Below, one piece after another: positions 10,557 through 39,300 of a stretch of 64,000 nucleotides of DNA. A model generated the notes under the pieces. The model was not told the DNA's origin, did no database searches, and saw nothing but the letters and a program-made list of their open reading frames with translations. The stretch spans positions 310,301 to 374,300 of the forward strand of contig NZ_WUUS01000001.1 in NCBI RefSeq assembly GCF_009831625.1, in the 5' to 3' direction. Source of the stretch: Halobaculum saliterrae (lineage in GTDB: Archaea > Halobacteriota > Halobacteria > Halobacteriales > Haloferacaceae). The translations under genes were made by a program, and so were the position numbers. Numbering within the stretch: the first letter of the stretch is position 1; every line of letters starts with the position of its first letter.

Positions 10557-10599
10557 AGCCTAGGGCGGGATTTGAACCCGCGCTCTCGTCCTTACCAAG
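10557..10599. repeat. attL: left copy of the 43-bp direct repeat (tRNA-Thr 3' fragment)
   Basis: This copy is identical to 46668-46710. It consists of the 3' end of tRNA-Thr (acceptor strand, T arm and the anticodon-stem 3' side, read on the minus strand). The match breaks immediately after CCAAG, where the intact gene continues with GACGCG and this copy with ACGG. It is not a functional tRNA. Confidence 0.95.
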
Positions 10600-10670
10600 A
10601 CGGTGATACGTTTCGTGGCCTGAGAACGCCGATTTGACCGTCCTCAGCCAACACGTTTTTAGTGTGTCTT

Positions 10671-10826
10671 TCAGACCTCGTCGCCGTCCTTGTATTTGCT
10701 GTATATCCGGTTGCTGGCCGGGCTCCTCGTCAACTTAGTATTATCGCGCACCCCCTTCAAACACCGGGCAAGCAGTCTATCGGCCTGCTTGATACCACTA
10801 GCATCGACAACGTCTCCAATACCCAT
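10671..10826 (-). CDS. Small basic protein (51 aa), downstream of the Orc1/Cdc6-like gene
   Basis: The reading frame begins at an ATG 20 nt after the Orc1/Cdc6-like stop, encodes MGIGDVVDASGIKQAD... and ends ...NRIYSKYKDGDEV before TGA. It is Lys/Arg rich in its second half and has no recognised domain. It is the last frame before attL and is in a different frame from the upstream gene. It may be a small DNA-binding accessory protein of replication or excision, but this is inference from position. Its short length makes it uncertain. Confidence 0.45.
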   Translation of the reverse strand: MGIGDVVDASGIKQADRLLARCLKGVRDNTKLTRSPASNRIYSKYKDGDEV

Positions 10827-10845
10827 TCAAAGCTGCCGTAGTGGA

Positions 10846-11655
10846 CTACTCCTCTATGTCGTCGATGACTACTTGTCGCTGTCCTGCCTGATCAGCTTTC
10901 CTGCCTGCACGAAGCAACTGGTTCAAAGCTTGTCGACAGTCCCCGCTTTTCTGTGCAACCTGAGAGGCAATCTCTTCTACTACTTCATCAGGTACTGTGC
11001 CGGGACGGAATGCCTGCTCAACACGCTTTTCCAGTATTTCGATCAGTTCCTGTGTGCTGTAAGGTTTGAACTGGAGTGTCTGGCAGTTCAATCGGCTGCG
11101 GCTGCGCGGATCTAACTTCAGCGTCGAGGGCTGCTGGTTTGACACCATTACAATACCTAACTGATTTTCACTGTCTTCGTTCAGCATTTGCAAGTCGTAG
11201 ATGACTTCGGTTCGTTCCTGTAGTTGGTCGAACTCGTCTAATGCGACTGCTACTCCACGGTTCTTGCTCAACCATTCCTGTATTTTGGAGAGTAGTTCGT
11301 CGACCGGTTTTCCTTTCCGCGGTGCTGGATAACCCAGCTGAATCAATAACTCCGTCAACAAGGAGGGACGGGTGTTGTACTGCCAGCAATTGATGTAAAC
11401 CGCTTTGGAGGTGGTCTCATCCTCCATCCGGTCGAAGACATGGCGTACACAGGTGGTCTTTCCGATACCGGCCGGACCATAGACTAACAGGTTCTCAGGG
11501 CTACGCCGACGCGTAACCGGTTTCACCGCCTCCACAATCCGATTTATCTCCCTGCGTCTTCCTACCGGTTTCTCCGGTTGAAAACCTGTACCGAGATAGG
11601 TTTCGCTTCTAAGTATACTGCGTCCGTCTTCTTGTTTTGATTCAAACGTTGCCAA
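10846..11655 (-). CDS. Orc1/Cdc6-like AAA+ ATPase (short form)
   Basis: 269 residues. Walker A is GPAGIGKTT (about residues 60-68), Walker B is VALDEFDQL, and sensor 1 is VMVSNQQP. The lid domain ends with a region rich in short helices (GDCRQALNQLLRAGRKAD). The C-terminal winged helix of full Orc1/Cdc6 proteins (about 400 aa) is absent, so origin binding would rely on the AAA part or on the partner at 11887. The apparent start is TTG; no ATG or GTG precedes the conserved region. It is divergent from a second Orc1/Cdc6-like gene. Confidence 0.8.
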   Translation of the reverse strand: MATFESKQEDGRSILRSETYLGTGFQPEKPVGRRREINRIVEAVKPVTRRRSPENLLVYGPAGIGKTTCVRHVFDRMEDETTSKAVYINCWQYNTRPSLLTELLIQLGYPAPRKGKPVDELLSKIQEWLSKNRGVAVALDEFDQLQERTEVIYDLQMLNEDSENQLGIVMVSNQQPSTLKLDPRSRSRLNCQTLQFKPYSTQELIEILEKRVEQAFRPGTVPDEVVEEIASQVAQKSGDCRQALNQLLRAGRKADQAGQRQVVIDDIEE

Positions 11656-11886
11656 TAGAATACACCCCCTCGCAGTTTTCCCAGCGAGTAAATTCTACTC
11701 TGGATCAACCATATTCAAAAGAGAGGTCCGGCACCCCGGTTCACTTGATACCACTAAAACAAAGCGTTGTAACCGGAACTCGTGGAACACTCTCGGGTTT
11801 AAATAAATCAGTGATCTCCAGTCTTTTCATTTGAACCAGGGTATCGCTAAACCTGTGTAAAACAACAATTCACAAATCCTGTTTTG
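11656..11886. other. Candidate replication origin between divergent Orc1/Cdc6-like genes
   Basis: This 231-bp AT-richer space separates two divergent initiator-type genes, the usual position of haloarchaeal plasmid origins. It holds an imperfect palindrome at 11681-11703 (CCAGCGAGTA with TACTCTGG), an AT-rich GTTTAAATAAAT run near 11798-11809, and GGAACACTCTCGGGT near 11782-11796, weakly resembling an ORB core. The 13-mer CTTGATACCACTA occurs here and again near 10789. A canonical ORB was not found, so the assignment rests on gene arrangement. Confidence 0.45.
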
Positions 11887-12927
11887 ATGACACGTGAACT
11901 AATCTCCGACCTTGAGCCACTGCAACCAGAATCCGTTCCTGCAGACTTCGTCGACCGTGAGAACACGAAAACCGCTCTCTCCAACCTGATCGGTCCGGAC
12001 AGCAGCAGAAATATTCATCTCCAAGGACCCAAGGGAACCGGTAAAACCCATCTCACACTTCTCCAACTCAACCAACTTGACCAAGCAAACACATGCTATA
12101 TCGACTGTAAAAACAGTGATACACAGTACAAAACCCTGAGACAGATACTTCAATCACTAACCAAGGAACCCGTCAATACTGGGTACCACACATCCGACCT
12201 ACAGAGAAAGATCGAGGAACGGACCGGAGCTGTACACACCGTGATTGTTCTTGATGAAATCGAATTCTTACTGGAGAACGACGGTGACAGCCTTCTCTAC
12301 TTCCTCTCCCGAATGAAAAACCAATCCAAGGTCAACGTCATCACCATCTCCAACCAGAATCTGAATCTGCAAAAACAGGTAGAGGAAAGAACATTCAGCA
12401 GCCTCCAACCATACCCCATTCAACTGGAACCGTATACCGGCGAAGAGGTCTACGACATACTCCTTGAACGAGCACAGAAATCATTGAAACCCCAAACCGT
12501 TCAGAAATCAAGTCTAACCTACATCGCCTCAACAACCACCAACCCTCGACTCGGGATCCAATGGCTGAAAACCGCAGCACAACAGGCGGACAAAATCATC
12601 ACCGAAACACACGTCCAACAAGTCCAAGAGAAAGCCGTTAACGAATACATCAACCAGATCCTCAGTTCTTTCACCGAACACCACCGGCTACTCTTCCAAG
12701 CAATCCAAGAGCTCGCAGAAGACACAGACACCAAAATACGGACCGGAGCCGTCTACAAACGTTACCAAGAACTCTGTCAATCCCAAGAACAGGAATCATT
12801 GAGCAACCGCCGTATCAGCGACCACTTAAAACAACTCGAACACCTCAACCTGATCAAAGCAGAATACCACTACGGCGGCAGCAAAGGTAAAACACGAGAA
12901 ATCCGTCTCAAACAACCAACTCCATAG
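11887..12927 (+). CDS. Orc1/Cdc6-like AAA+ ATPase with winged helix
   Basis: 346 residues, starting at ATG 11887 (a TTG immediately upstream is ignored). Walker A is GPKGTGKTH (about residues 47-55), Walker B is VIVLDEIEFLL, and sensor 1 is ITISNQ. A lid region follows (NPRLGIQWLKTAAQQADK), and a C-terminal winged helix (RISDHLKQLEHLNLIKAEY) lies at about 300-330. This is a complete initiator architecture, about 50 residues shorter than chromosomal Orc1. It probably drives replication of the excised element together with the short paralogue at 10846. Its codon use is AT-richer than that of host genes. Confidence 0.85.
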   Translation: MTRELISDLEPLQPESVPADFVDRENTKTALSNLIGPDSSRNIHLQGPKGTGKTHLTLLQLNQLDQANTCYIDCKNSDTQYKTLRQILQSLTKEPVNTGYHTSDLQRKIEERTGAVHTVIVLDEIEFLLENDGDSLLYFLSRMKNQSKVNVITISNQNLNLQKQVEERTFSSLQPYPIQLEPYTGEEVYDILLERAQKSLKPQTVQKSSLTYIASTTTNPRLGIQWLKTAAQQADKIITETHVQQVQEKAVNEYINQILSSFTEHHRLLFQAIQELAEDTDTKIRTGAVYKRYQELCQSQEQESLSNRRISDHLKQLEHLNLIKAEYHYGGSKGKTREIRLKQPTP

Positions 12928-12935
12928 AAATTCAG

Positions 12936-13358
12936 CTATCTACAAACAGGACAGACACCTTCACGACCGACCTCAGTCCCAAAACAAAAACCGCATTCAC
13001 CACATTCTACCAATTCTGTCTCAGTTGAAAACTGCGGAGACTCCGTAGGCGTACCTCCAAAATCAATTCCGCCAGTAGACTCAAACCCTATATCAGACAA
13101 AGCCTCTTCAAGCATCTCCTCAGCAAGATCATACAGCTCACCTTGTTGAACAGAATGCGCATATCCACGCTGTTCACCAGTCATAAACCGGTCTAACTCA
13201 GCAATAAACCCACAATAAGGACAACGCAGATTCCGGAAACCACTGTCCTCATATCTTTCTCTGTCAACAGTGAAACGTCCTTGACAGCGAGGACACTCCC
13301 TCCCAATCATTCCCCCGTCGTCGGGGAATTCGATCGAAATTTGTTTCGAGACTCTCAT
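12936..13358 (-). CDS. Double zinc-ribbon protein, coupled to the wHTH-PLD-like gene
   Basis: About 140 residues. The N-terminal ribbon has CPRC and CPYC about 30 residues apart, and a C-terminal ribbon has CGEC and CPVC; the middle is acidic and helical. The start at 13358 overlaps the previous gene's stop as ATGA, and GGAGGT lies just upstream, so translation is coupled. The function is unknown. The pairing with a winged-helix/PLD-like protein suggests a nucleic-acid-binding partner in one complex. The first ribbon contains a histidine-free Cys4 site; neither ribbon is fused to an enzyme. Confidence 0.7.
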   Translation of the reverse strand: MRVSKQISIEFPDDGGMIGRECPRCQGRFTVDRERYEDSGFRNLRCPYCGFIAELDRFMTGEQRGYAHSVQQGELYDLAEEMLEEALSDIGFESTGGIDFGGTPTESPQFSTETELVECGECGFCFGTEVGREGVCPVCR

Positions 13359-14356
13359 TGGACCTCCTCTGCGTCTTCCCAAGCACTATCAAATTTCTCC
13401 AAATCTGATTCTACATTTACTGGACGCATCTCACTGATGGTATGATGCTTCGTACCGGAATGAGCAAAGGTATGACCCCAAACCCAGCCTTCACTGCGAT
13501 CAACAAACAGAAGCCGGTCGTGGAAAGGCCACTCACCACTCCGATAATCCAAGTATCGTAGCTCCGTGCCACCCGTCCGATCCTCGGATAACTGATTGAA
13601 CTTCTCCCTATTCTCTTCATCAATTTCTTGGTCAGTACATAGGACCTTGATATCAACAACATCAGGTACGTCACACAACATTTCAGTATACAATTTGCCC
13701 TGAGCAAACGGGTCAACAACAAGAACTTCCTCTCCCGCTAACTCTACGATATCTCTGAAAAGATTGAATGCAGTCTCCTCATCACCCTTCTCAACTGAAT
13801 ACTGTGCCCACTGGGTCAACTCCTTTGAACGCGGAATCGGAATACCATCATCCCGATACTCCTCAAACATATTACGTCCCTGTGCCGTGATCTCAAGATA
13901 ATCCCCGGCTTTATTTTCGATCAGGTCTTTTTGATTCAAATAATATATATTTACTTTGAACTCCTGTTCGTCTACATCCAGTTCATCGAGAATATCACTA
14001 CGGCCAACACCGTAACTGGAACTGGTAATGTTCTCTCGATCATGGATATACAGTTTCCCCAAAATTACGTAACGAAGATCATCTTTCAAAATCGTGTCAT
14101 ACCCTTTTTCATCCAACCTCTCGATCCCGGCGGCAGTGATCTCTACAGAATTAATCGGGTTTCCGAGTCCACCTTTAGTTTCAACAAGCCGGTCATCATC
14201 CATCCGCGATAAATGATACACAACGTCCTCAACGTCAAAATTCAAGCTGTCACATATCTCTTCAAAACCAGCACGATAACGAATACTCTGACTATGTATC
14301 CTGTATACCTTGGCAAGAATCTCACGACGAATCCGTCCATCACTACCTGAGGCCAT
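13355..14356 (-). CDS. Winged-helix protein with PLD-like C-terminal domain
   Basis: About 333 residues. Two tandem winged helices (about 1-85 and 95-155: SRMDDDRLVETKGGLGN, YLNQKDLIENKAGDYL) precede a C-terminal domain of about 150 residues. That domain has EVLVVDPFA, FHDRLLFVD and WGHTFAHSGTKHHTISEM. The latter two resemble the HDR-D and GxS-K parts of phospholipase-D-like proteins found in mobile elements, although a second full HxK motif is not evident. ATG 14356 is preferred over 14374 because a TTATTATTATAA box lies 25 nt upstream (leaderless). It forms an operon with the zinc-ribbon gene. Confidence 0.68.
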   Translation of the reverse strand: MASGSDGRIRREILAKVYRIHSQSIRYRAGFEEICDSLNFDVEDVVYHLSRMDDDRLVETKGGLGNPINSVEITAAGIERLDEKGYDTILKDDLRYVILGKLYIHDRENITSSSYGVGRSDILDELDVDEQEFKVNIYYLNQKDLIENKAGDYLEITAQGRNMFEEYRDDGIPIPRSKELTQWAQYSVEKGDEETAFNLFRDIVELAGEEVLVVDPFAQGKLYTEMLCDVPDVVDIKVLCTDQEIDEENREKFNQLSEDRTGGTELRYLDYRSGEWPFHDRLLFVDRSEGWVWGHTFAHSGTKHHTISEMRPVNVESDLEKFDSAWEDAEEVQ

Positions 14357-14375
14357 ACAAGACCGACTATACATT

Positions 14376-14388
14376 ATAATAATAAGAA
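14376..14388 (-). promoter_or_regulatory. TATA box of the wHTH-PLD / zinc-ribbon operon
   Basis: On the minus strand an AT-only TTATTATTATAA run is centred near 14381, about 25 nt from the ATG at 14356. This implies a leaderless transcript and an independent promoter for the two-gene unit. Confidence 0.6.
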
Positions 14389-14444
14389 ACTAACCAACAA
14401 TCAGTATACAGTAGAATTTTCCAGCAGAAGCCCGTCCGCGAGCG

Positions 14445-14834
14445 TTAGAATAGTTCGTCAAGCAGGTTTTCGCTACTTAATTCATCGATACTGCGGAGTA
14501 GATCTCTCCGTTCTTGTTCCAGCTCCTGTTTATCACACCAGTGCTGCTGCTTCTCGTTCCGTAGTTGCCGATAAAACAAGGTGATTTGATTCTTCAATTG
14601 GCTTCTTTCAGCAGCCTTTCCTCGTCTCTGCTTGTACAAGTCTTCTAATCGATTTTTGTACCAATCAAGTTTCGACTCCAGTTCGTCGACGACTTCCCTG
14701 TGTACCTGATTTCGTTCCTCTAACTGCTGTTCGATCCGCTTCAGTTCCTCTTCCAATCGATCCTGCTGCTGTTCTTTGCTCTCCTGTAGTAGCTCTTTCA
14801 GCTCAAGATCCCAGTCGTCATCCAGGTAATCCAT
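14445..14834 (-). CDS. Coiled-coil protein of unknown function
   Basis: 129 residues, almost entirely helical with heptad-like Leu/Glu/Gln/Arg patterning (QQDRLEEELKRIEQQLEERN; LDWYKNRLEDLYKQR). There are no catalytic motifs and no membrane segment. It lies between the PLD-like operon and a short helical gene on the same strand (32 bp gap to the latter). It may be a structural or oligomerisation partner of a neighbour; nothing more specific can be said. Confidence 0.6.
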   Translation of the reverse strand: MDYLDDDWDLELKELLQESKEQQQDRLEEELKRIEQQLEERNQVHREVVDELESKLDWYKNRLEDLYKQRRGKAAERSQLKNQITLFYRQLRNEKQQHWCDKQELEQERRDLLRSIDELSSENLLDELF

Positions 14835-14866
14835 AAAAAATAATTGGTATTAGGGAGTGTTACTGG

Positions 14867-15019
14867 TTATTCCTCGCCGGGTTGCAGTAGACTCCGGTAT
14901 TCCTTTGCCTTCTCTCTGTAGAACTGGGGTAGTTGTTCGATCTCGTTGTCGGTCCAGTTCTGTACTTTTTTGAGTAGTTTGTCGGCTTCTGATAGTTCTC
15001 TTGGAGTGGCGCGTCCCAT
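14867..15019 (-). CDS. Small helical protein (50 aa)
   Basis: The frame MGRATPRELSEADKLL... ends ...YREKAKEYRSLLQPGEE. It is amphipathic and charged, with a predicted helix over most of its length. It begins 41 bp after the HEPN gene and precedes the coiled-coil gene on the same strand, so the group may be one transcript. The function is unknown; the small size lowers confidence. Confidence 0.5.
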   Translation of the reverse strand: MGRATPRELSEADKLLKKVQNWTDNEIEQLPQFYREKAKEYRSLLQPGEE

Positions 15020-15060
15020 CACTGGTTTGGTGGAGATCTGAATCTTTAGATTGGGAAGGG

Positions 15061-15555
15061 TTAGGCGGTGTTGCAGATGCATTCGTGGCTTTCGCCTGCT
15101 AATTGGAGTACATGACTGTGGACGGCTTTGGCGAGTTCCAGCATTTTCCTGGCTCGTTCTTCGGTTGCGATTCCTTCTCTGTAGTATGTGTCTGATCGGT
15201 TGTTTCGCCAGAGGTTGGTGAGTTTGCCGGCGAATTCCTTGGTGTAGAGCCCTGCGTCTTCTCCCATCTGGTAGACGTTTTCGTGGTTGATGTATTCGTC
15301 TTCGTGAAGCAAGCCTGTGTCGAGAAGGTAGAACTGTATGGTTCGTTCTATCGCAGAGAAACTGGCTTCGATTACAACGGTGTAGTATCCGTCTTCTTGT
15401 TGGAGGAACTGTGCGGCATCGATCATGCGACATGCTTTCTTGAGTTGTAACAGGGTGGGGTCGTCGACGTCGAGTCCTTCTTCGAACTGGTTGCCTGGTC
15501 TTTCGAACAGGGTTGTGGCTTCGTCCAGTAGGTCTTCTACGTCGCTGTCGTCCAT
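15061..15555 (-). CDS. HEPN-domain protein, probable toxin of a HEPN/MNT pair
   Basis: 164 residues, all-helical. The region LTNLWRNNRSDTYY (about residues 113-126) resembles the RNxxxxxY active-site motif of HEPN RNases that pair with MNT antitoxins. The gene starts immediately after the MNT stop codon (no gap), as in hepT/mntA modules. In such systems the MNT protein blocks HEPN by adding AMP to a tyrosine near the RNase site, and a YY pair is present here. Its role as an addiction or phage-defence module is inferred from family and context. Confidence 0.72.
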   Translation of the reverse strand: MDDSDVEDLLDEATTLFERPGNQFEEGLDVDDPTLLQLKKACRMIDAAQFLQQEDGYYTVVIEASFSAIERTIQFYLLDTGLLHEDEYINHENVYQMGEDAGLYTKEFAGKLTNLWRNNRSDTYYREGIATEERARKMLELAKAVHSHVLQLAGESHECICNTA

Positions 15556-16209
15556 TTAGAAGACTGCCTCCTTGATTTCGTCCAGTTTACTGGTGGAGTG
15601 GAGTATGATGCCTTCTGAGAAGATCTGCTGTAGTTTCTCGCCGTAGTTTTCCGCAGACTCGACGGATTCTACTAGGAGTTGGATTTCGTATCGTTGTCCG
15701 TCGAACTTCTTGTTCTCGACTTCTTGTCTAAGGTCTTGGAGTGTGCGTCGGGATTCGAGGAGGTCGTCTTCCACGATTACTTGGATGTCGATGTCGCTGG
15801 CTCTGTCTGCTTCTCCTCGTGCGACGCTTCCGAACAGTATGATTCCAACAGTGTTGATGTCGGTTTGTTTTATTTGTTCGAGTAGTGTTTTGACGGGGTT
15901 TCTGAATTCTTTTTGAGGTATTTGGAGCAGTGGGTCGTCGGGTTTCTGGATTTGGTCTTGTTGGATCTGTATCAGTGAGCTTCGCCCTTGTTTTGTTTTG
16001 GTGATGAGGTGGAGGTTTTCTAGGATTTTGACGGCGTTGTCTACTGATTTTCCGCCGTGTCCTGTGGTTTCTCGTAGTTGTGTGATTGTGAATTCGGTGT
16101 GAGGGTTGTTGTAGAGCAGTTCGAGTATGTCGTCTGCTGCTTGGTATCGGAATACTTGTTTTTCGGGTAGGGGTAGTGGGAGGAACACACCCGAAGTTTC
16201 GTCACTCAT
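15556..16209 (-). CDS. MNT-type nucleotidyltransferase with winged helix, probable antitoxin
   Basis: About 217 residues from ATG 16209. The N-terminal winged helix (FTITQLRETTGHGGKSVDNAV, about residues 37-60) is followed by a minimal nucleotidyltransferase with GSVARGEADRASDIDIQVIV, the GS...DxD signature. Unlike the usual 100-residue MntA it carries its own DNA-binding domain, suggesting direct autoregulation. A 7-bp inverted repeat lies just upstream of the start. It is directly followed by the HEPN gene. A GTG at 16224 would add five residues but would place the start inside the operator. Confidence 0.78.
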   Translation of the reverse strand: MSDETSGVFLPLPLPEKQVFRYQAADDILELLYNNPHTEFTITQLRETTGHGGKSVDNAVKILENLHLITKTKQGRSSLIQIQQDQIQKPDDPLLQIPQKEFRNPVKTLLEQIKQTDINTVGIILFGSVARGEADRASDIDIQVIVEDDLLESRRTLQDLRQEVENKKFDGQRYEIQLLVESVESAENYGEKLQQIFSEGIILHSTSKLDEIKEAVF

Positions 16210-16218
16210 AGTGGTACA

Positions 16219-16235
16219 AGTCACTCTTAGTGACT
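16219..16235. promoter_or_regulatory. Palindromic operator at the HEPN/MNT promoter
   Basis: A perfect 7-bp inverted repeat, AGTCACT-CTT-AGTGACT, lies between the TATA-like CTATAAAAAC (16239-16248, minus strand) and the ATG at 16209. It therefore covers the expected transcription start. The winged-helix part of the MNT protein is the obvious candidate ligand. Confidence 0.65.
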
Positions 16236-16263
16236 AAAGTTTTTATAGGTGATGGGAGAGTAC

Positions 16264-17496
16264 TCAGTCTTCCAAACTTTTCAGCTTCTCCAAAACACCA
16301 TTCTCCTCCAGTTCAGACAGACGCTCCAGTACTTCCTGCTTATCTTGTTTCTCCGCCTGCTTCTTGAGACTGAGAGGTCGCCCACATTTCCTGCATTGAC
16401 TGTGCTCATTCTGATTCTCGGTACCGCAGAACGAACATGAAATCGGTTTATCCTCCTCTGAGTCGGTTTCAAGCCCGTACTGATCTCGGATCGCCTGGTT
16501 CACATCGTCGTTGTTCAAGTGGACATAGACCTTGGCTCGGTCGCTTCCAGGGGTCCAGCCAGCAAACTTGTTCAACTGCTCATACCCCATGAATGTCGCT
16601 ACCTCTGTCAATCGGGTATGACGCAGGTTGTACGGACGACGCTTGGATTCAGGGATATCAGCCCGTTCACATGCTTTCTTGAAACGACGGAGGAAAGCAG
16701 CGTATTTCATCGGATCCGCGGCATCCGGTTCATAATTACAGTTGTCACTATGGGTTTGCGGAGTATCACCGCAGTTCCGGCAGGCTTGCTGTTCCAATTT
16801 TACCCATAGAGGAGCGTTCACATCCTCTATATCTCCGATCTCACCTCCCAACGGATGCAATGAAACCCATTCACGGAGAGCACGGCCAGACCGAACCAGT
16901 TGGTTTGTCCGATCAGGAGTACCTTTCAATCCTTCCAAGAAAATGAACTCGCCTTTCTCATTCACAGTGAAATCCCCTATGTTACGAGAAAGCAGTTCGC
17001 CAGGACGTGCTGCTGACTCGTACAGTACGTAGACCATTGCTCGGTCACGAGTGTTGTTAAAGCTGCTAAGCAGTCGTTTCAACTCCTCTTTCGTGAACAG
17101 GTCTTCCCGGGTAACAGAGGTGGGCTTACTGCTTTGATGGACTGAAAAGAATTGGACCTTGTCCGGGTGTTCTCCACTGTTTTCTACTTTGTACAGCTTC
17201 TTGATCGAGGCTCTGAACTTGTGCTTTGTAGGTTCAGCGTAGTCGCTTCGGTTGATATTAGCGACTAATTCCTTGAGTTCGGATTCGGAGGCACCACGGA
17301 TTTTGAAATCATACGGTGCGAATTTTTTCAAGGCGGTCTTCCAAGCATAGATAATCCGTCGTTGCTGGCTGTCTCCTATTCCTTCGGCAGCACAGTGGTT
17401 GATAAGGCTGTTTACGGCTTGGTAGTTTTCTTGGCCGACTTCGTCTTCCAGTTTTTGAAGTGATCTATTGATATCGATGTATTCTGTAGTAGTCAT
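16264..17496 (-). CDS. Tyrosine recombinase with C-terminal zinc ribbon (XerC/D-like)
   Basis: 410 residues. A SAM-like N-terminal DNA-binding domain (about 10-115) precedes the catalytic domain with ESAARPGELL (Arg I), YNLRHTRLTEVA (His-x-x-Arg), AGWTPGSDRAKVYVHL (Trp at the His/Trp position, then the nucleophile Tyr). A zinc ribbon (CSFCG...CRKCG) sits at about 357-377. This architecture is frequent in haloarchaeal elements. It lies deep inside the element, 29 kb from the att-proximal integrase, so it is probably a resolvase or an additional invertase rather than the integrase of this att pair. Confidence 0.86.
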   Translation of the reverse strand: MTTTEYIDINRSLQKLEDEVGQENYQAVNSLINHCAAEGIGDSQQRRIIYAWKTALKKFAPYDFKIRGASESELKELVANINRSDYAEPTKHKFRASIKKLYKVENSGEHPDKVQFFSVHQSSKPTSVTREDLFTKEELKRLLSSFNNTRDRAMVYVLYESAARPGELLSRNIGDFTVNEKGEFIFLEGLKGTPDRTNQLVRSGRALREWVSLHPLGGEIGDIEDVNAPLWVKLEQQACRNCGDTPQTHSDNCNYEPDAADPMKYAAFLRRFKKACERADIPESKRRPYNLRHTRLTEVATFMGYEQLNKFAGWTPGSDRAKVYVHLNNDDVNQAIRDQYGLETDSEEDKPISCSFCGTENQNEHSQCRKCGRPLSLKKQAEKQDKQEVLERLSELEENGVLEKLKSLED

Positions 17497-17804
17497 GGTT
17501 GTGTTTCACGTCTCGAAGATGGAAGGAATGAGAGGAAACACACCACTTCATTTGGGGTTCAATGGACAGCCCGACATCTAAACCAAGGGTCAAGTGGTCT
17601 GTTCCGGAAGCCGGGACAGGTTTCTTTTGGACCCTGTCTCGGTTGGAGTCCACTCAACCGTTGATTAGGTGGACGAAGAGTCCAAGCTATTATTGGTTCA
17701 GTGGTCTTCGTTGAGTGGCTTTACGCCTCTCCTTCCTTCGTTTGAGTTTTCAAGTGAAAATTGATCTAGAATCTTTAAATAAGTTAAATATTTGATAATT
17801 AGAT
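17497..17804. other. Structured intergenic region (nested hairpins)
   Basis: These 308 bp contain no gene. A 9-bp stem with a 3-nt loop (17598-17618, one G-T pair) is enclosed by AGGGTC (17585-17590) and GACCCT (17629-17634). A second hairpin follows at 17640-17660 (CGGTTGGAGT and ACTCAACCG). It lies between the internal recombinase and the histone-like gene, so it could be a recombination site or a structured RNA. Confidence 0.5.
17774..17782 (+). promoter_or_regulatory. TATA box of the histone-like gene
   Basis: TTTAAATAA is centred 27 nt upstream of the ATG at 17805, implying a leaderless mRNA. The flanking sequence is unusually AT-rich. Confidence 0.6.
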
Positions 17805-18041
17805 ATGGAATTCTCGATCCGATCTATGAGTATTTTACTTAAACAAGAGACCGATAAACGAGTATCTGAATCCGCAGCAAATCAGCTTGGAGAAGTTCTA
17901 GAGAAATTCAGTGAAGACATCGCCAGCGACGCAATATCTCTTGCTGCCGAAGAGGGCTACCAAACAGTCAAACAAGAACACATCAAAACTGCCCTGGACC
18001 AATACCTAGATCGAGAGATACAGCAGTCGTATTTCTCTTAA
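17805..18041 (+). CDS. Single histone-fold protein
   Basis: 78 residues. The pattern KRVSESAANQLGEVLEKF, EDIASDAISLAAEEGY, TVKQEHIKTALDQYL matches the helix-loop-helix order of archaeal histones (alpha1 RVS...A, alpha2 with the SEDIASDAI core, loop 2 with TVKQEHI, alpha3). The N-terminal extension (MEFSIRSMSILLKQET) replaces the usual short tail and the IAPIGRII segment. Haloarchaeal chromosomal histones are normally tandem doublets, so a singlet on a mobile element is notable. It could wrap the element's DNA or act as a regulator. It is leaderless and monocistronic. Confidence 0.75.
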   Translation: MEFSIRSMSILLKQETDKRVSESAANQLGEVLEKFSEDIASDAISLAAEEGYQTVKQEHIKTALDQYLDREIQQSYFS

Positions 18042-18091
18042 TACAGATATCCAAGATGATATATTTCGATACGGCGAAACTGTAGAACTCC

Positions 18092-20077
18092 CTACAGCTG
18101 TGGAAGCTGCTCGCTGTTGAACTCCCGAAACAGTCGAAACACGATTCTATCATCTTCTAAATTGTTCTCAGCTAATCTCTGCCGTAAACCTTCCCGAACT
18201 TCCTTGTTACGGCAGGCGATCCAGACGCTGTCGAAACGGTCCAAGTGTTCTTCAACATGTTTGATTTCTCGGGGATTATCTCCCATCGCGACCTCAACCA
18301 CTAACTCCGTGTTTCCCATGTTGACGTAGACATCCGCATCGAATTTCTCGAAGAACGCAGACCAGCCCATTTCTTCAAACAAATCTTTGATCCGATGCTG
18401 CCAAAACCGGTGTACAACTCCGCCACGACCCCTTCGCTTCACCTCCAACCCCAGTTCACTTTCTGCGTAGTTACGGCCTTTCTCAGTCAACTGCAACAGC
18501 TTCCGCTTACCCTTCTGAGTGTGGACCTTTCTCTCAACTACAACACCGTTGTCGACAAGCATATTCTTCACCTTGTTACCCTTGTAACTACTCGGAAAAT
18601 CACCATATCGGTCGGTCAAGCCACGGAATGGATTCTCCACTACGTCCTTGAGGAACCGGTCTGCATCACCACTCAAATCTAGTTCTCCTTGTGGGTCCTC
18701 AACGATCTCCGGATTCTCGACCTCATCTGAACGACCGGGAGCAACTAGTGATTTGAAATCCGGTGTCAAGCTCCGAGGTTCATATGAAAGACTGGTCCAG
18801 TTATCAGCTTGTCTTCGCTCCAAGTCTTCATCCGAAACCTGCTTCTCCAAACTGTAATCATCCAAACTCACCGGTACCGGACTACCGTTACCAACCTGGA
18901 CAACCGCTTCACCAGTACCCAATCCCTGGGCAAACTCTCGCTGCCGCTCAGACAGGTTCAAACTGTCTGCAACCTCGTCAAACTGCCGCCGATCATCCAT
19001 TGGCAGCAGGAACTTGGTGTACGTGTTAGCCTTGATAGAATCCGTCAACTTACCAGGCTCCTGATCGCCCACAACCAATCCTTCACCGAACTCCCGCATC
19101 TTCGCCGTCAACTCATCAATTTCAGGGATGCCAGAAGCACTCTGCCTCTCCTTGTAAACCGAGAAGACTTGTTTCCCTTCATCCAAGAAGAACAGATGCC
19201 GCAAACCACTGTCTCGCTGGTTACTGGCTAACCTGTATTCAAACACGTAGGCAAACAAGACTTCCATCAAGAAATTCTGGACATCACGACTCAGTCCGTC
19301 AAACTCAAACACCACATCCCGCTTCAACAACTCCTCCAAGTCGTAGCCCTGACTACAATCAAAAACCGTTCCCGCAGTAAGAGTCATCGCCTCCAAACGA
19401 TTCAAAACCGTATCACGATAATTCGACGACTTCCGCATATAACTCATAGAATCAGCCTCAATCAAAGCCTGGAGCTCAAACAAACTCGGGTAAGGCGGAG
19501 AAACACACTCGAATAGATTGTACGCCTGGTAGAGCTTGATCACCGACTTCAGCAAATAATTCTTAGAACCACTCAACAACGCCGTAGAGTGGCTAAACAT
19601 TTCACTGAATACCTGAGCCCATCTTCTCGGAGGTACTCCTTCAGGCGGCCGTAACGGATTCAAACGCAGCTTAGACCACGGCAACACCAACAACTCATGG
19701 TTCTGTGAGAGATGGCGGTAGTCCTGCTTTAGATCAAAGAACCAGACCGGCACACCCACCTCTCGATACAGATTATAGAACAACGTCGTCTTCCCCGAAC
19801 CACTCTGACCCACCGCCAACAAATGCTGATTCAAACCCTCTTCATCTAAGCGAACCGGGAAGCCGCTATAGCTTCGTCCCACCTCCACACCTCCGGATAA
19901 CATCTCAGAGCTGCTGAACGGGAACTCTTGATTCCGCAGATCCTGAACCGCCGCTAACCGTCCAGCACAGTTCAACAAGAACTCATTATCCGAAGCAACA
20001 GCTGCCTCCACCAAATCACGTAGCTCACCGTCAACACGATTCTCCTCCAACAAACGCAGCAAAGACTCCTTCCTCAC
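18092..20077 (-). CDS. HerA/VirD4-type ATPase with C-terminal nuclease-like domain
   Basis: 661 residues, GTG start. The RecA-like core has Walker A GQSGSGKTT (about residues 90-98), WFFDLKQDYRHL and Walker B HLFFLDEGKQVF (about 295). After a winged-helix-like linker (VKNMLVDNGVVVERKVHTQ), the last 110 residues show DADVYVNMGNTELVVEVAMG, compatible with a PD-(D/E)xK nuclease fold. Similar proteins occur in archaeal plasmids as DNA translocases. It follows hsdR by 53 bp on the same strand and could belong to the restriction operon or act in conjugation. The exact role is not determinable here. Confidence 0.72.
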   Translation of the reverse strand: MRKESLLRLLEENRVDGELRDLVEAAVASDNEFLLNCAGRLAAVQDLRNQEFPFSSSEMLSGGVEVGRSYSGFPVRLDEEGLNQHLLAVGQSGSGKTTLFYNLYREVGVPVWFFDLKQDYRHLSQNHELLVLPWSKLRLNPLRPPEGVPPRRWAQVFSEMFSHSTALLSGSKNYLLKSVIKLYQAYNLFECVSPPYPSLFELQALIEADSMSYMRKSSNYRDTVLNRLEAMTLTAGTVFDCSQGYDLEELLKRDVVFEFDGLSRDVQNFLMEVLFAYVFEYRLASNQRDSGLRHLFFLDEGKQVFSVYKERQSASGIPEIDELTAKMREFGEGLVVGDQEPGKLTDSIKANTYTKFLLPMDDRRQFDEVADSLNLSERQREFAQGLGTGEAVVQVGNGSPVPVSLDDYSLEKQVSDEDLERRQADNWTSLSYEPRSLTPDFKSLVAPGRSDEVENPEIVEDPQGELDLSGDADRFLKDVVENPFRGLTDRYGDFPSSYKGNKVKNMLVDNGVVVERKVHTQKGKRKLLQLTEKGRNYAESELGLEVKRRGRGGVVHRFWQHRIKDLFEEMGWSAFFEKFDADVYVNMGNTELVVEVAMGDNPREIKHVEEHLDRFDSVWIACRNKEVREGLRQRLAENNLEDDRIVFRLFREFNSEQLPQL

Positions 20078-20130
20078 AAAGACAACTCTACAACAAGAAC
20101 AAAATTCAGTCTAAGCGAACACCACGTCTC

Positions 20131-23121
20131 CTATGCCGCAGCCCCGCCATAGAAAGCCTCAGCCTGCGAAACAATCGGATCAACCAAGCCATCATACTTG
20201 TACAAACTCAAACCATTACTTCGCAGAACAGCCTTAACCTCCGTCTTGATCTCAGCACGGATCTTCTCACGATTCGTCCAGTCCACCTCAGTACTATCCT
20301 TCAAATTCTGCTTCAACTCACGAGCAATAGTCTTCAACGTCTCCTCATCGATTTCAGAATCCGTATTCGAGGAGATAGCCGAGTAGAAAGCATACTCCTC
20401 GTCACTCAAGCCAAGCTCATCCTGCTGATCATCCGTCTCCTGAATCCTATCAGCGTAATCCCGCAACTCATCGATAACTTGCTGCGTTGAGATGAAGCCC
20501 TCGTTGTATTCGTTAATCGTCTCCTCCAGTTCCTCCTCGAAGGATTCGTACTTCGCTAAGTTCGTCTGCTTCCGGGTCGTGATCTCATTTTCCAATAGCT
20601 GCCGAAGCATCTTCACCTGCAAGTTCTCGAATTCGACCTCCTCGACATCCTCCAAGAACTCATCGCTCAACACCGGCTTCTCCTTCTCCCACTTGTCAAA
20701 GCCAGTTACCTCTATCAAATCCTCAATACCGACGCCCTCAGCAACAAGCTCCTTCATGGCCGAATCCACGTCCTCGACCTCGTCCGGATTACCGGAGTTA
20801 TCGATACTGTTGATAGCACCTAAGACAGCTTCAAAGAACGCTACGTCTGCCCGGATATCACTTGCCGCGGAATGAGGCGAAACCAATGAATGAGCCTTCT
20901 TTAACCCCTTCATCGATTCACGGAACTTATCCTCACGCTCCTCAGTAACCAATACCTCGTTCTGTGCCTTGTACAGCAATCGCTGGCGATCCGTCTTGTT
21001 CAGCTGCGGCCAATCATTGTATTCGATAGCAGCGAAGAAGTCGGCAACCTCCTGATGCTTCTCCCGCATCACTTGGACCGCTTCCTCAATATCCAGCATC
21101 GCATCATTCCGGACCTCAGACGTGTACTTATCCAACGCCTGCTTCAACCGCTCACTGATACCGATATAATCAACGATCAAACCACCAGGCTTGTCCTTGT
21201 ACACCCGGTTAACCCGGCCGATAGCCTGCAACAGGTTGTGGTTCTTCATCGGCTTATCGACGTACAACGTGTGCAGATGCGGGGCGTCAAACCCGGTCAA
21301 CCACTTATCACAGACAACAGCGATCTCGAACGGGTCATCAGGATCTTTGAAACGCCGCTTCAACTCATCATTCGAAATCGGGTTGTCGATATAGTCTTCT
21401 GCACCGGACATGACTACCCGTGTCTCAGGTGCATCCGAGTTCTCCCTGATCTTCTCAGCCAAGTTCATCGCTGCCTGACGACTGATAGCAACCACCATCG
21501 CCTTCCCCTCGATCTCACGATTATTGTAGTGGTCTACAATGTCGTCAGCAATCATCTCAGTCCGCTCCTCACTGTTCTCAATAACCCGGCGGAGCTGAGT
21601 CCACTTCTTCTTCATCTCATTCTTCAACTCGTCCGACTTCGACTCCATCAACTCGTTAAACCGGTCCTCTATCTCCGGATCATTAACCTGGAGCTTCGCC
21701 AAACGACTCTCATAATAAATCGGGACTGTGGAACCATCCTTCTCAGATTCCTTAATCGTGTACTGGCTGATATAACCGCCAAACGTGTTCGTTGTCGACC
21801 GATCCTCCTTCTCAATCGGAGTAGCAGTAAAGCCGAGATGTGACGCGTTCGGCAGCCCGTCACGGACATTCGTCGCTAAACTCTTATACTGAGTTCGGTG
21901 GGCCTCGTCCGCAACCACGATCACATTCTCACGGTCGTTGACCTCCGGATACTGTACTTCATCATCCGTGGTCTGGAACTTCTGAATCGTCGCGAAAATG
22001 ATGCCGCCAGCCTCCCGATCTAACCGGTCACGAAGCTGAACCCGGTTATCACTGTCTGCCCATTCAGCATCCAAACCGTGCTTCCTGAACTCCTTATACA
22101 GCTGATCATCCAAATCATTCCTATCCGTGAGATAGACCAGCGTCGGGTTCTCCATCTCGCTTACACGCCGAATCTTCTTCGCATAGAACACCATAGAGAG
22201 CGATTTCCCAGACCCCTGAGTATGCCACACCAAGCCGATACGATCCTCATCAGGATTCGGAACTACCTGCCGACTGCTCTCCACCGCGCTATTCACTGCA
22301 TAGAACTGGTGGTACGCAGCCAGCTTCTTACCCAGCTTTCCATCCTCATCAGCATACAATACAAAATTCTGGATAAGATCGAGAACCCGTGACTTATCGA
22401 ACGCACCACGGATCAACACCTCAGACGGAGGCAAATCCCCGGTAGCATCCTCTTCCTCATCGATATACCGCCACGGAGAGAACCACTCCCAGCCAGCAGA
22501 CAGACAACCCAGCTTCGCATTATTCATATCTAAAATCCCGATCAACTCATTATAGTGAAACAGGTCCGGAATATCGTTCACATACCGGTCTGTGACCTGC
22601 TTGTACGCATTACCCATCGACGCCTGCGGATTCGTCGGATCCTTCAACTCCAAGACACCCAGAGGTAGCCCGTTGACAAACACGATGATATCCGGCCGGC
22701 GCTGCGGACCCTCGCCAATCTGAATAACCACCTGATTAGAGACCAGAAAATCGTTCGCCTCAGGGTTCTCAAAGTCAATTACGTCTACAAAATCACCGCG
22801 AGTCTCACCGTTGACCTCGTACTCAACCTGAATCCCGTTAACCAGTTTCTCGTGGAAATTCTTGTTATTCTTTAGCAGTTTCGTCGAGTTGAAACCGAGA
22901 AGCTGAGAAATCGCATCCTCGATCGCCTCATCCGGCATAGACGGATTAAACTCCTGAAGCTTCCGCTCAAGACGGCCACGCAGAACTACGTCTGAAAGCG
23001 ACTGCCGCTCAGGATCATCACTATTCGGCCCCAATTCAGAACCGTGTTTGTAGTCATATCCAATATCCTGGAAAGCCTGTAGGGCCGGCTTCTCCGCCAA
23101 CTCCATCTCATTCAAAGACAT
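20131..23121 (-). CDS. hsdR: Type I restriction endonuclease subunit R
   Basis: 996 residues. The N-terminal nuclease region has RRPDIIVFVNGLPLGVLELK (about 142-161; PD...ExK). The SF2 translocase follows with HTQGSGKS (Walker A, about 290), VVADEAHRTQ (DEAH, about 405), FTATP, and motif VI AIGRVNR. The C-terminal 250 residues are helical and contact the methylase. It is the last gene of hsdM-hsdS-hsdR. HsdR uses ATP to pull DNA through the complex and cuts unmethylated DNA far from the recognition site. All motifs look intact. Confidence 0.94.
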   Translation of the reverse strand: MSLNEMELAEKPALQAFQDIGYDYKHGSELGPNSDDPERQSLSDVVLRGRLERKLQEFNPSMPDEAIEDAISQLLGFNSTKLLKNNKNFHEKLVNGIQVEYEVNGETRGDFVDVIDFENPEANDFLVSNQVVIQIGEGPQRRPDIIVFVNGLPLGVLELKDPTNPQASMGNAYKQVTDRYVNDIPDLFHYNELIGILDMNNAKLGCLSAGWEWFSPWRYIDEEEDATGDLPPSEVLIRGAFDKSRVLDLIQNFVLYADEDGKLGKKLAAYHQFYAVNSAVESSRQVVPNPDEDRIGLVWHTQGSGKSLSMVFYAKKIRRVSEMENPTLVYLTDRNDLDDQLYKEFRKHGLDAEWADSDNRVQLRDRLDREAGGIIFATIQKFQTTDDEVQYPEVNDRENVIVVADEAHRTQYKSLATNVRDGLPNASHLGFTATPIEKEDRSTTNTFGGYISQYTIKESEKDGSTVPIYYESRLAKLQVNDPEIEDRFNELMESKSDELKNEMKKKWTQLRRVIENSEERTEMIADDIVDHYNNREIEGKAMVVAISRQAAMNLAEKIRENSDAPETRVVMSGAEDYIDNPISNDELKRRFKDPDDPFEIAVVCDKWLTGFDAPHLHTLYVDKPMKNHNLLQAIGRVNRVYKDKPGGLIVDYIGISERLKQALDKYTSEVRNDAMLDIEEAVQVMREKHQEVADFFAAIEYNDWPQLNKTDRQRLLYKAQNEVLVTEEREDKFRESMKGLKKAHSLVSPHSAASDIRADVAFFEAVLGAINSIDNSGNPDEVEDVDSAMKELVAEGVGIEDLIEVTGFDKWEKEKPVLSDEFLEDVEEVEFENLQVKMLRQLLENEITTRKQTNLAKYESFEEELEETINEYNEGFISTQQVIDELRDYADRIQETDDQQDELGLSDEEYAFYSAISSNTDSEIDEETLKTIARELKQNLKDSTEVDWTNREKIRAEIKTEVKAVLRSNGLSLYKYDGLVDPIVSQAEAFYGGAAA

Positions 23122-23127
23122 ACCACA

Positions 23128-24378
23128 TCAGACCTCACTATCAACCTCTAAATCATCCAAGTTAATGTCATTAACCCTGACCTCACCCGACATCAACTTC
23201 GGAAGCAAAGAATCCCTGAGTTCGGAAAGTTCTTGGTTTTCTTCTACGTTATCGTTGATCATTTCTTTCATCGAGGAAGTTAATGTATTGAATCGCTCAA
23301 TATCTTTCTTCGGCGGGAGTGCCACAGGGAAGTTCTGAATATCTGTTTTATTGATTGAGTTAAATGTTGTTCCTGATTTGTACTTTTCCCAATTTGGCTT
23401 ATTTGCTTTCAGCAAATGGTATAGATATTCGTTTTCAAACTCAGCCATTCGTAGAGCAGTAACCCCACGCCCTACAACGCATTTTTCACCTGCCCTATTT
23501 ACATCACCAACCGGTGCTCGGATACTGATTAATACATCATCTTCTTGAGCTACCTTCTTTTTTTTCGTACACCATCTCTCTACCTTGGGATATCTAAGTC
23601 CGAAATTTTTGCTACCTTGGAAAAACGGCAACCCTTCCCCCTCTTCATTGTAATGTTCAGATTTCGGTGAATTACCTAGTATGATCTCGGCAAATTCAGA
23701 TATGGTTTTTACTTCGAAACTCTCAGGAATCCGCCCTATATCAGAATTTTTGAAGTCATCATATGGAGAGAAGTCAACAAACCAATTCCTGAAGATAGTT
23801 TGTTCTATCTCTTCCAATACAGAATTTATTTCCCTATTTGTATTTATTTTCTTGTCTATATTTGTGAGAATAGTTGCGATCGTCTTCTGTTCTTCAATCG
23901 GAGGTATAGCAATAGTCTCCTCGTAGAATTCATCTCGATTTAAACCAGGAACGGCAGAACCGCTCTTCAGCCGATCAAGATCAAAATCTAAGAAATTATA
24001 ATAGAGATATCGGAGATCCACCTCAGATATCTTTAGAGAATCTGGATTAATATAGTAGGCAGTATCGATCACATTGAAATTAGTGTCGCTCCATTCAATC
24101 CCGAGATTCACTCCCTTTCTGCCAACAATAATTCCAGGAGCATCAACGTGATATTCTGAGTGCCATCCTGAACGACCATTTGAGCCAAAAACAGGATATG
24201 GCCCTTCTTCGCGTTCTTTTTTGGGTAAAGAGCTACCGTATTCTAATTCAAGCAATTCGCCGATCGGAGAGATTTTCCAGGAATTTGGCTTCTCTACACC
24301 CTGTCTTTGTAGGATGTACGGCTTGCTGAGGCCTTCTACTTTTTTTATTTCCGACAGAGTCCGCTGTTCGGAGTTCAA
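23128..24378 (-). CDS. hsdS: Type I restriction-modification specificity subunit S
   Basis: 416 residues. Two target-recognition domains (about 30-150 and 215-345) are each followed by a conserved helical spacer (PPIEEQKTIATILTNIDKKI at about 160; PPKKDIERFNTLTSSMKEMI at about 360). TRD1 starts WKISPIGELLELEYG, and TRD2 starts FEVKTISEFAEIILGN. It overlaps the hsdM stop by 4 nt and precedes hsdR by 6 nt. The central part is markedly more AT-rich than its flanking genes, as is common for exchanged recognition domains. Confidence 0.93.
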   Translation of the reverse strand: MNSEQRTLSEIKKVEGLSKPYILQRQGVEKPNSWKISPIGELLELEYGSSLPKKEREEGPYPVFGSNGRSGWHSEYHVDAPGIIVGRKGVNLGIEWSDTNFNVIDTAYYINPDSLKISEVDLRYLYYNFLDFDLDRLKSGSAVPGLNRDEFYEETIAIPPIEEQKTIATILTNIDKKINTNREINSVLEEIEQTIFRNWFVDFSPYDDFKNSDIGRIPESFEVKTISEFAEIILGNSPKSEHYNEEGEGLPFFQGSKNFGLRYPKVERWCTKKKKVAQEDDVLISIRAPVGDVNRAGEKCVVGRGVTALRMAEFENEYLYHLLKANKPNWEKYKSGTTFNSINKTDIQNFPVALPPKKDIERFNTLTSSMKEMINDNVEENQELSELRDSLLPKLMSGEVRVNDINLDDLEVDSEV

Positions 24379-25955
24379 AATCCCACCTCTTGAAGGCTTT
24401 TATCTATCTTCTTCTGCAATTCTTCTGATTTTTGGAAGTTCTCACGAAGGTCAGCAGCGAGTCTCTCCATTTTGTTTTGGAATATCTCTGTATCTTCACT
24501 ATCCGTTTCGACACCAACGTATCTGCTGGGTGTTACAATATATCTATTATCAGCTATTTCTTTTGTTTGTACTACTTTACAGAACCCGGTATCATCCTCA
24601 TAATTATTTGCCTGATCTTCTCCACGATATGCTCTTACGGTATTGGCTATCTTTTGTATATGATTCTTCTCCAACCGATTTTGGGTTCGGTTGACAGTTT
24701 CATAGAGATCTCTTGCATCAATAAACAGGGTCTCATTCTTTCTGTCACGATATTTATCTTCTCTCTTCCCTTTGCTGAGAATGAATATACAGGCCGGTAT
24801 ACTAGTTGTATAGAATAGCTCCTTCGGAAGGGCAATAACAGCATCCAGTAGGTCATCTTCTACAATACCTTTCCTAATTTCTCCTTCGTTATTTTGAGCA
24901 GACATTGCGCCGTTTGCCATGACTGTGGCTGCCATCCCGGTGTCGTTGAGATGGTGGATCATGTGCTGGATGAAGGCGTAGTTGGCATTGTTGGAGGGAG
25001 GCACCCCGTATTTGAATCGAGGATCGTCATCCGCTATCTGGTCCTTGCCCCATTCGCTCATGTTGAATGGAGGATTGGTGAGTATGTAGTCTGCTTCAAG
25101 TCCTTTGTGTTGGTCATTGAGGATGCTGTCTCCTTGTTTGATGTTACCGTCTAGACCGCGGAGGTAGAGGTTCATCTTGGAGATTTGGAGGGTGCTTTCC
25201 TTGATTTCTTGGCCGTAGATAGAGATCTTGTCGGTGTCTCCTCCGTGGCTTTCTATGAATTTCTGGCTCTGGACGAACATTCCGCCTGAGCCGCTGAATG
25301 GGTCGAAGATCCGGCCTTCGTAGGGCTCTAAGATTTCGACCATTAGTTCGACGACGCTTTTGGGAGTGTAGAATTCGCCTCCTTTCTGCCCGCCTTCCAT
25401 CGCGAACTGCTTAATGAAGTATTCGTAGATACGGCCGAAGACGTCCTCATCCTTGTCTCCGTTCCCTGCTTCCATGTTCAGATCTGCAAACAGATTGATC
25501 AGACCTTCTAAGGCGTCAGAAGAGTTGTCGGAGAGAGAAGATCGGGAGTATCCTTTCGGGAGAATTCCTTTGAGACGCGGATTTTCGTCTTCTATTGCAC
25601 GCATTGCGTCGTCGATCTTCTTCCCGATCTGAGGGTTAGTGGCGTTGTTGACGAAGTACTGCCAGCGTGCTTCTTCAGGGATGTAGAATACGTTTTCTCG
25701 GTTGTACTCGTCCTTGTCCGAGAGAATGTACTCCCGTTCTTTCTCGTCTTCGGTATAGTATCGAGAATCGGAGTCGCGGGTTTTCTCTTCGAGTTCCTGT
25801 CGTCGCGCCTCAAAGGAGTCAGACATACTCTTGAGGAAGAGCAGACCGAGCGCAAAGTCCTTGTATTCAGAGGGGTCGACAGGTCCTCTCAGTTTTTCTG
25901 CAGTTTCCCAGAGTTTCTTTTCAAGCTCACCGTTAGAATTCCCCGCAATAGCCAT
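24375..25955 (-). CDS. hsdM: Type I restriction-modification DNA methyltransferase subunit M
   Basis: 526 residues. An N-terminal helical HsdM domain (about 1-150) is followed by a gamma-class N6-adenine methylase with motif I DPFSGSGGMF (about 218-227) and motif IV NPPFNMSEW (about 294-302). It is the first gene of the operon; the hsdS start overlaps its stop by 4 nt. With HsdS it methylates the recognition site and protects the element's host. The start ATG at 25955 fits the family N-terminus. Confidence 0.95.
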   Translation of the reverse strand: MAIAGNSNGELEKKLWETAEKLRGPVDPSEYKDFALGLLFLKSMSDSFEARRQELEEKTRDSDSRYYTEDEKEREYILSDKDEYNRENVFYIPEEARWQYFVNNATNPQIGKKIDDAMRAIEDENPRLKGILPKGYSRSSLSDNSSDALEGLINLFADLNMEAGNGDKDEDVFGRIYEYFIKQFAMEGGQKGGEFYTPKSVVELMVEILEPYEGRIFDPFSGSGGMFVQSQKFIESHGGDTDKISIYGQEIKESTLQISKMNLYLRGLDGNIKQGDSILNDQHKGLEADYILTNPPFNMSEWGKDQIADDDPRFKYGVPPSNNANYAFIQHMIHHLNDTGMAATVMANGAMSAQNNEGEIRKGIVEDDLLDAVIALPKELFYTTSIPACIFILSKGKREDKYRDRKNETLFIDARDLYETVNRTQNRLEKNHIQKIANTVRAYRGEDQANNYEDDTGFCKVVQTKEIADNRYIVTPSRYVGVETDSEDTEIFQNKMERLAADLRENFQKSEELQKKIDKSLQEVGF

Positions 25956-26018
25956 GCACAGTAGTGCTAAGGAAACACTGATAATGGTTGTGTTGAACCA
26001 GAGGCCACCGACAACGAA

Positions 26019-26555: not shown

Positions 26556-26629
26556 CCAGGTTACTTCTTCAGAGAGGACCGCTCCTCTTTATTCCACTCG
26601 TTTTCAGCCCCTTCTGTTTTCTCGCTATA

Positions 26630-26758
26630 TTACCAGTCTGACAACCCGAACTGTTCGGTCAAGACCTCGATTGCCTCCTCGACTTTCTTAGATTTCCGCA
26701 GCTCCGGACCGGTGTACTGTTCTTTCCAATATTGCAGATCAAACCAATTCTCGTTACC
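26630..26758 (-). pseudogene. Remnant coding fragment downstream of the methyltransferase
   Basis: An open frame without ATG, GTG or TTG start reads GNENWFDLQYWKEQY... and ends VEEAIEVLTEQFGLSDW before TAA. The ending closely matches the C-terminus of the 142-aa protein at 27466 (IEDAVEVLTSQSGIQDF, then stop). It overlaps the methyltransferase stop by a few bases in another frame. It looks like the tail of a duplicated gene truncated when the methyltransferase was inserted. Confidence 0.5.
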
Positions 26759-27446: not shown

Positions 27447-27465
27447 TACCTGCCCTGGCTCGATC

Positions 27466-27894: not shown

Positions 27895-27929
27895 AAACCG
27901 CTTCTCCTCCAGTATTTCTTCAACAGATT

Positions 27930-28265: not shown

Positions 28266-28266
28266 C

Positions 28267-31443: not shown

Positions 31444-31544
31444 ATTTAGGTTACAGACCGATAGTACGGGAAGCCGTTGGTAAATAATGGTATGGTGGAA
31501 AACAGGTAAAGAAGAGAGGAGTTCGAGAGGAAGGGAGGAGGTGG

Positions 31545-39295: not shown

Positions 39296-39300
39296 TTCGA

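Follow-up and report, generated by a model that had tools for sequence, protein, structure and literature searches.

A winged-helix PLD-fold protein and a twin zinc ribbon form a candidate abortive-infection-like defence pair on mobile DNA in Halobacteria

The systems labelled PDC in PADLOC are candidate systems, and two of them are close counterparts of the gene pair described here: PDC-M14, which consists of M14A and M14B, and PDC-S05, which is labelled a single-gene candidate. A literature search by the name PDC-M14 found no paper, and the accessible part of PMC12988326 names PDC-S05 in its methods only. Proteins of related fold include Nuc, NucT and the nuclease domain of SauUSI, as well as TrmB and TrmBL2, in which a winged helix is followed by a PLD-fold domain; a literature search that combined TrmB, phospholipase D and the winged helix found no paper. 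AbiJ-NTD, according to the available text of PMC3710099, is a single N-terminal module joined to HEPN, HKD/PLD, TIR and other effectors. It follows the same logic of one module and many effectors as the zinc ribbon considered below, but the module is distinct from the zinc ribbon and the two are compared by logic alone.

The pair was found in the window, the whole stretch of 64,000 nucleotides of Halobaculum saliterrae DNA that was analysed, and its features and surroundings are listed in Table 1. Gene 2 is a member of the zinc-ribbon family of M14A, matching PDC-M14A of PADLOC at 7.8e-14 over positions 5–127 of the 152 in the profile, but in the window it is paired with a winged-helix PLD protein, in the opposite gene order to PDC-M14. 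A scan of ten window proteins gave no match to M14B at E up to 1, and two M14B models found nothing at 0.001 in the whole genome. The PLD domain of gene 1 matches PDLC04869 (2.4e-7) and PDLC04879 of PDC-S05, and the HDR motif is common to gene 1 and an Azotobacter member. However, the match is limited to profile positions 177–292 of 306, and gene 1 differs in its two additional winged helices and its constant partner. The sequence-only reading had not recognised the unit as any named system. Each half does match a PADLOC candidate, but the pair is neither PDC-M14, because M14B is absent, nor the whole of PDC-S05, because the match is partial.

Table 1. Features of the gene pair and of the element that carries it (window positions)
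Feature	Position	Strand	Remark
Integrated element carrying the pair, 36 kb	10557..46710	.	exact 43-bp direct repeat at both ends
Two orc1/cdc6 genes	10846-11655 and 11884-12927		
Gene 2: twin four-cysteine zinc-ribbon protein, PDC-M14A-like	12936..13358	-	140 aa
Gene 1: two winged-helix domains and PLD-fold domain	13355..14356	-	333 aa; in 12 other haloarchaeal records
ATGA start/stop overlap of gene 1 and gene 2	13355..13358	-	read from sequence
GGAGGT Shine-Dalgarno, within gene 1, 3 nt before gene 2 ATG	13362..13367	-	
PLD-fold domain, residues 179-333	13355..13822	-	VIA Z 12.7-13.2 to nucleases; PDC-S05 2.4e-7
H279-x-R281-x4-D286, variant of HxKx4D active-site motif	13499..13522	-	relatives' alignment
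Winged-helix domain 2, residues 91-172	13841..14086	-	VIA Z about 11 to MarR-type regulators
Winged-helix domain 1, residues 1-87	14096..14356	-	VIA Z 11.5 to AF1382 2qvo, 81 residues
TATA-like box TTATTATTATA	14375..14385	-	about 27 nt before ATG 14356
Nucleotidyltransferase, PDC-M05A type	15556-16224		1.5e-14 (PADLOC)
Histone-fold protein	17805-18041		
Type I restriction system	20131-25955		R, M by search; S by eye
DNA methylase	26754-27446		
VirB4/HerA-like and TraG-like ATPases	33756-35993, 36967-38889		
Tyrosine recombinase	45347-46480		beside intact tRNA

Three signals that had been read from the letters of this stretch were recovered: the stop of gene 1 and the start of gene 2 overlap in ATGA, the ribosome-binding sequence GGAGGT is strong, and the pair has its own promoter element, here called TATA-like. 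An alternative in-frame ATG at 14374 would extend the product of gene 1 to 339 aa. The archaeal rule for the spacing between TATA box and start was used to choose between the two, and because ATG 14374 sits directly at the TATA-like box, a leaderless transcript starting translation at ATG 14356 is more likely. A scan for promoters of the sigma-70 style, which is unsuited to archaea, was set aside. At its end the pair lies 9 nt away from the stop codon of the convergent orc1/cdc6 gene (TIGR02928) at 11884-12927.

The structure of gene 1 was modelled with AlphaFold2 from four sequences (pLDDT 67.3, pTM 0.47), so that its fine detail is not trustworthy. Even at this middling confidence, structure comparison upheld the proposed PLD-like fold. 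The C-terminal domain aligned with NucT (VIA Z 13.2, 144 residues, rmsd 3.3), Nuc (VIA Z 12.7, 142 residues, rmsd 3.1), SauUSI (VIA Z 12.7, 140 residues, rmsd 2.8) and Zucchini (VIA Z 12.0), and gene 1 aligned with TrmB 2f5t at VIA Z 11.3. A whole-chain Foldseek search placed TrmBL2 first (2.3e-6), followed by TrmB (7.5e-5) and Nuc (5.1e-4). Single-protein sequence searches of the PDB gave no useful match, and a profile of 11 gene 1 relatives searched against PDB sequences gave weak matches to TrmBL2 (0.034) and Nuc (0.34). Winged-helix domain 2 had a weak match to HTH_45 in Pfam, below the cut-off. The N-terminal domain family of VPA1262 (NF040700) matched with 29.3 bits over positions 306–453 of 478, under its curated cut-off of 80 bits.

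The HDR-D motif that had been noted in gene 1 held up as H279-x-R281-x4-D286, which is unchanged in all 11 full-length haloarchaeal relatives. Compared with the HxKx4D motif, H and D are invariant and Arg replaces Lys in each of these 11. The H-x-R-x4-D pattern was found in 16/16 proteins with the domain, with the last D replaced by N in two. Gene 1 shares the fold and the H and D of the motif with Nuc, NucT and the SauUSI nuclease domain, but it has Arg for Lys, is fused to two winged helices and is 8–16 percent identical to them. The order of winged helix and PLD-fold domain is like that of TrmB and TrmBL2, but the TrmBL2 stretch aligned to the motif is without H and R and gene 1 had no match to the Pfam TrmB family at E up to 1. 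The GxxSGxK-like block also described by the sequence-only reading stood in part, with F297, G301, H305 and T306 invariant across the relatives; the K of SGTK varies, and a nucleotide-binding (Walker-type) role was ruled out for this reason. The Azotobacter relative (PDC-S05 at 1.1e-14, HDR motif present) adjoins type I restriction genes and matches PLDc_2 of Pfam at 1.4e-4, below the family cut-off.

Gene 2 proved to be the predicted double zinc ribbon, with four CxxC and eight Cys in 13/13 haloarchaeal copies, all of which end in CPxCR; the copy at one locus (L030) has an inner stop. Its nearest Pfam match was Zn_ribbon_4, below the cut-off. A second M14A match in the same genome (window 40569-40781, 3.2e-4) was taken as a chance CxxC. 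It lies inside a 569-aa coiled-coil ATPase-like ORF (window 39744-41453) whose middle has, by eye, a zinc-hook-like CxxC.

Strong matches to gene 2 were present in 10 of the 391 Halobacteria genomes searched, and strong matches to the PLD domain in the same 10. In every pair read the genes were adjacent and on one strand, and the conservation of the pairing, on which the initial interpretation depended, was therefore confirmed. Since the order and the overlap recur in other Halobacteria, the pair is more than a chance arrangement. The overlap was 4 nt in eight and 8 nt in three of 11 haloarchaeal pairs. An eleventh gene 2 match, in genome G360 at 2e-4, was rejected as a relative. Three further PLD-domain matches (3e-5 to 6e-4) were to other proteins. 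G043 was rejected as a relative, being an ion-channel-like ORF by eye, and the PLD matches in G161 and G360 are different proteins of 516–535 aa with HDRFILTN. Haloarchaeal proteins of this last size, with a C-terminal HDRFILTN PLD-like domain, were seen at L048 190-1740 and L049 1423-3030, and that of L048 had no convincing family match. They are possibly a separate candidate family.

The 13 haloarchaeal records comprise the 10 genomes, G090, and plasmids from Haloplanus and Halorientalis (the Natrinema plasmid is G216). Halorientalis has two copies of the pair. In the Halorientalis marina plasmid NZ_CP095490.1 (L052, L053), the two copies lie about 113 kb from each other, each with its neighbours, and encode the same gene 1 protein; this doubling is a recent segmental duplication. 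One gene was broken in three of the 13 records. Gene 1 was split by a transposase insert in G006 and interrupted in G090, with gene 2 intact in both, while G154 had a stop in gene 2 and an intact gene 1. In four close pairs dN/dS was 0.105–0.147 for gene 1 and 0.048–0.182 for gene 2, and both genes are under purifying selection. Distances for the two genes were correlated (r 0.96, with 0/9,999 permutations as high), to which host descent may contribute. Gene 1 had no match in phage records. The haloarchaeal profiles and the Azotobacter protein likewise found nothing in viral contigs.

When 14 loci were compared, only gene 1 and gene 2 were common to all, and the other neighbours varied. An orc1/cdc6-type cluster (c3) was near the pair in five, including the window, and absent from the stretch in nine. 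This variation bears out the suggestion that the unit is separate from replication genes. Seven of ten large neighbours, picked by size from eight of the 14 loci with no control set, matched PADLOC models at 1e-6 or better, a descriptive figure; the matches include HmaB, HmaC, TmtA (2.5e-96), LmuB, QatA/PifA and a ZorD/type IV-like nuclease. On plasmids, neighbours were also read from the annotation. Three similar loci (L020 3699-4882, L028 6602-7785 and L034 5678-6854) share a gene for a protein of 175–184 aa, some 10 nt upstream of gene 1, and also have a divergent gene for a protein of 213–215 aa that appears membrane-like by eye. This arrangement is a possible extended operon.

In the window, the carrier of the pair has the look of an integrated element of conjugative or plasmid-like type, and is a likely haloarchaeal integrative conjugative element. 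The copies of the 43-bp repeat (10557-10599 and 46668-46710) are part of a tRNA-Thr gene (46668-46739). G+C is about 45–53 percent between the repeats and about 63–75 percent outside them, with 56.5 in the 2-kb bin that spans the left border. One of the two orc1/cdc6 proteins, of 269 aa, had no match to the winged-helix family Cdc6_C among the 25 families listed, and the other has one. At window 15061-16224, a MarR-like and nucleotidyltransferase protein adjoins a small protein with a weak M05B match (0.02), and these genes are a probable MNT/HEPN-type pair.

Relatives of the zinc module in bacteria have other partners. In a Chloroflexota relative (L056) and in Emticicia the module is fused to a C-terminal domain. 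The L056 query found matches in 22 plasmid records, and neighbourhoods were compared for 12 of these (three haloarchaeal, Emticicia and eight more), with H10, H13-H16, H18-H21 and H28 left out. In plasmids of Curtobacterium, Kocuria, Microbacterium and Arthrobacter, an unfused zinc gene comes immediately after a TIR gene (PF10137 at 4e-26, 1e-25, 4e-24 and 9e-27, respectively). Three Rhodococcus plasmids have a TIR gene, labelled from annotation and similarity by eye, followed by a zinc gene with an ATGA overlap, in the same order as in the window pair. The arrangement was found in seven actinobacterial plasmids in total, and the TIR is of the CAP12/Pycsar type. These units share with the window pair the zinc partner, the order and, in Rhodococcus, the overlap, but the effector is a TIR and not a PLD nuclease, and in the zinc protein three of the four CxxC are kept and one is altered. 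Two of the zinc genes after TIR (L060 3504-3965 and L063 3498-3962) are missing from the plasmid gene table, and such partners are easily overlooked. In Lysinibacillus, M14A (1.3e-52) is beside M14B (3.7e-91).

Comparison of the haloarchaeal zinc profile with that of the TIR-paired proteins gave 99.0 percent (E 5.8e-18) and with that of the fused proteins 99.6 percent (E 1e-23). The fused proteins contain RHxxxH in 8/8, invariant in two alignments. According to the portion of PMC3710099 available, the HEPN motif is Rx4-6H with a polar residue after R, and the fused C-terminal domain has both. Its model (pLDDT 89.6, pTM 0.85) retrieved HEPN toxin-antitoxin chains as the top 13 matches in Foldseek (best E 4.3e-3), and the first matches by VIA were nearly all HEPN, at a Z of 10.2; for helical bundles, VIA values below 13 call for caution. 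The HEPN-like domain had no match in Pfam, and the fused-family profile found no HEPN entry in the PDB. The fused form was present in three loci of a viral-contig collection (L068-L070); a fourth (L071) was left out as its ORF stops before the HEPN-like domain. The TIR-paired profile found nothing in viral contigs.

On balance, we consider it somewhat probable that the pair is a two-gene, abortive-infection-like defence unit on mobile DNA. Gene 1 would be a nuclease, to judge from the PLD fold and HxRx4D, held on nucleic acid by its two winged helices, and the overlapping start would allow gene 2 to be made in a fixed ratio. The zinc ribbon may sense an infection cue, or it may hold and release the nuclease; on the cue, the complex would cut invader or host-cell nucleic acid. 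That gene 1 is catalytic, that the two proteins form a complex, that the zinc ribbon acts as sensor or switch and that the outcome is defence are inferred. The strict pairing, the PLD fold, the invariant motif and cysteines, the selection on both genes, the mobile setting with restriction genes and other PADLOC matches, and the exchange of partners by the zinc module support this reading. It is weakened by the change of Lys to Arg, the pLDDT of 67, the TrmBL2/TrmB-like architecture, the lack of a match in phage records and the mostly unproven candidate status of the PDC labels themselves. As the zinc module accompanies PLD, TIR, HEPN-like or M14B proteins on mobile DNA, we suggest, tentatively and with less assurance than for defence itself, that the M14A-like twin zinc ribbon could be the shared sensor of infection, or the shared switch of the effector, in a cross-domain immune family with an exchangeable killing part. 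This part would be a PLD nuclease in Halobacteria, TIR in Actinobacteria, a fused HEPN-like RNase in several bacterial phyla and M14B in Bacilli, and the window pair would be the archaeal nuclease branch.

The closest rival is a toxin-antitoxin system for plasmid maintenance, with gene 1 as a PLD toxin, autoregulated via its winged helices, and gene 2 as the antitoxin that blocks it. Such a system would account for an overlapping gene pair on plasmids and elements, for the toxin-like partners of the relatives and for the DNA-binding domains in gene 1, and in G006 and G090 it is gene 1 that is broken, as if it were harmful. Nevertheless, we regard this as unlikely, since a labile antitoxin would be a separate protein, whereas several bacteria have the zinc module fused to a HEPN-like domain, and the intact gene 1 of G154 beside a gene 2 with a stop would be disallowed for a strict toxin; moreover, toxin-antitoxin function and abortive defence overlap in practice.

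The next rival, which we consider somewhat less likely again, is that gene 1 is a TrmB/TrmBL2-like regulator with the PLD fold as its sensor and gene 2 as its partner or co-factor, controlling genes of the element. The leading Foldseek matches and the profile match to TrmBL2 agree with this, but the HxR missing from the aligned TrmBL2 is invariant in the gene 1 family, the Pfam TrmB match is absent, the best single-domain structural matches are nucleases and the zinc-ribbon partners elsewhere are TIR and HEPN-like proteins. It is highly improbable that the pair serves in housekeeping of the element, aiding plasmid replication, partition or transfer by nicking or processing. A nicking role would be compatible with winged helices and a PLD nuclease fold, and orc1/cdc6-type genes are near the pair in five of the 14 loci; however, the stretch is without such a gene in the other nine, the pair is sporadic among the 391 genomes and TIR partners on other plasmids fit replication poorly.

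Archaeal antiviral systems beyond CRISPR and restriction are described as poorly known in the accessible part of PMC12988326. The zinc partner shared across killer proteins suggests an unrecognised family of anti-virus systems with exchangeable effectors. If this reading is true, the pair offers a simple two-protein haloarchaeal system for testing, and should nuclease, TIR and HEPN effectors all be controlled by one zinc-ribbon protein, its cue would explain several unnamed systems.
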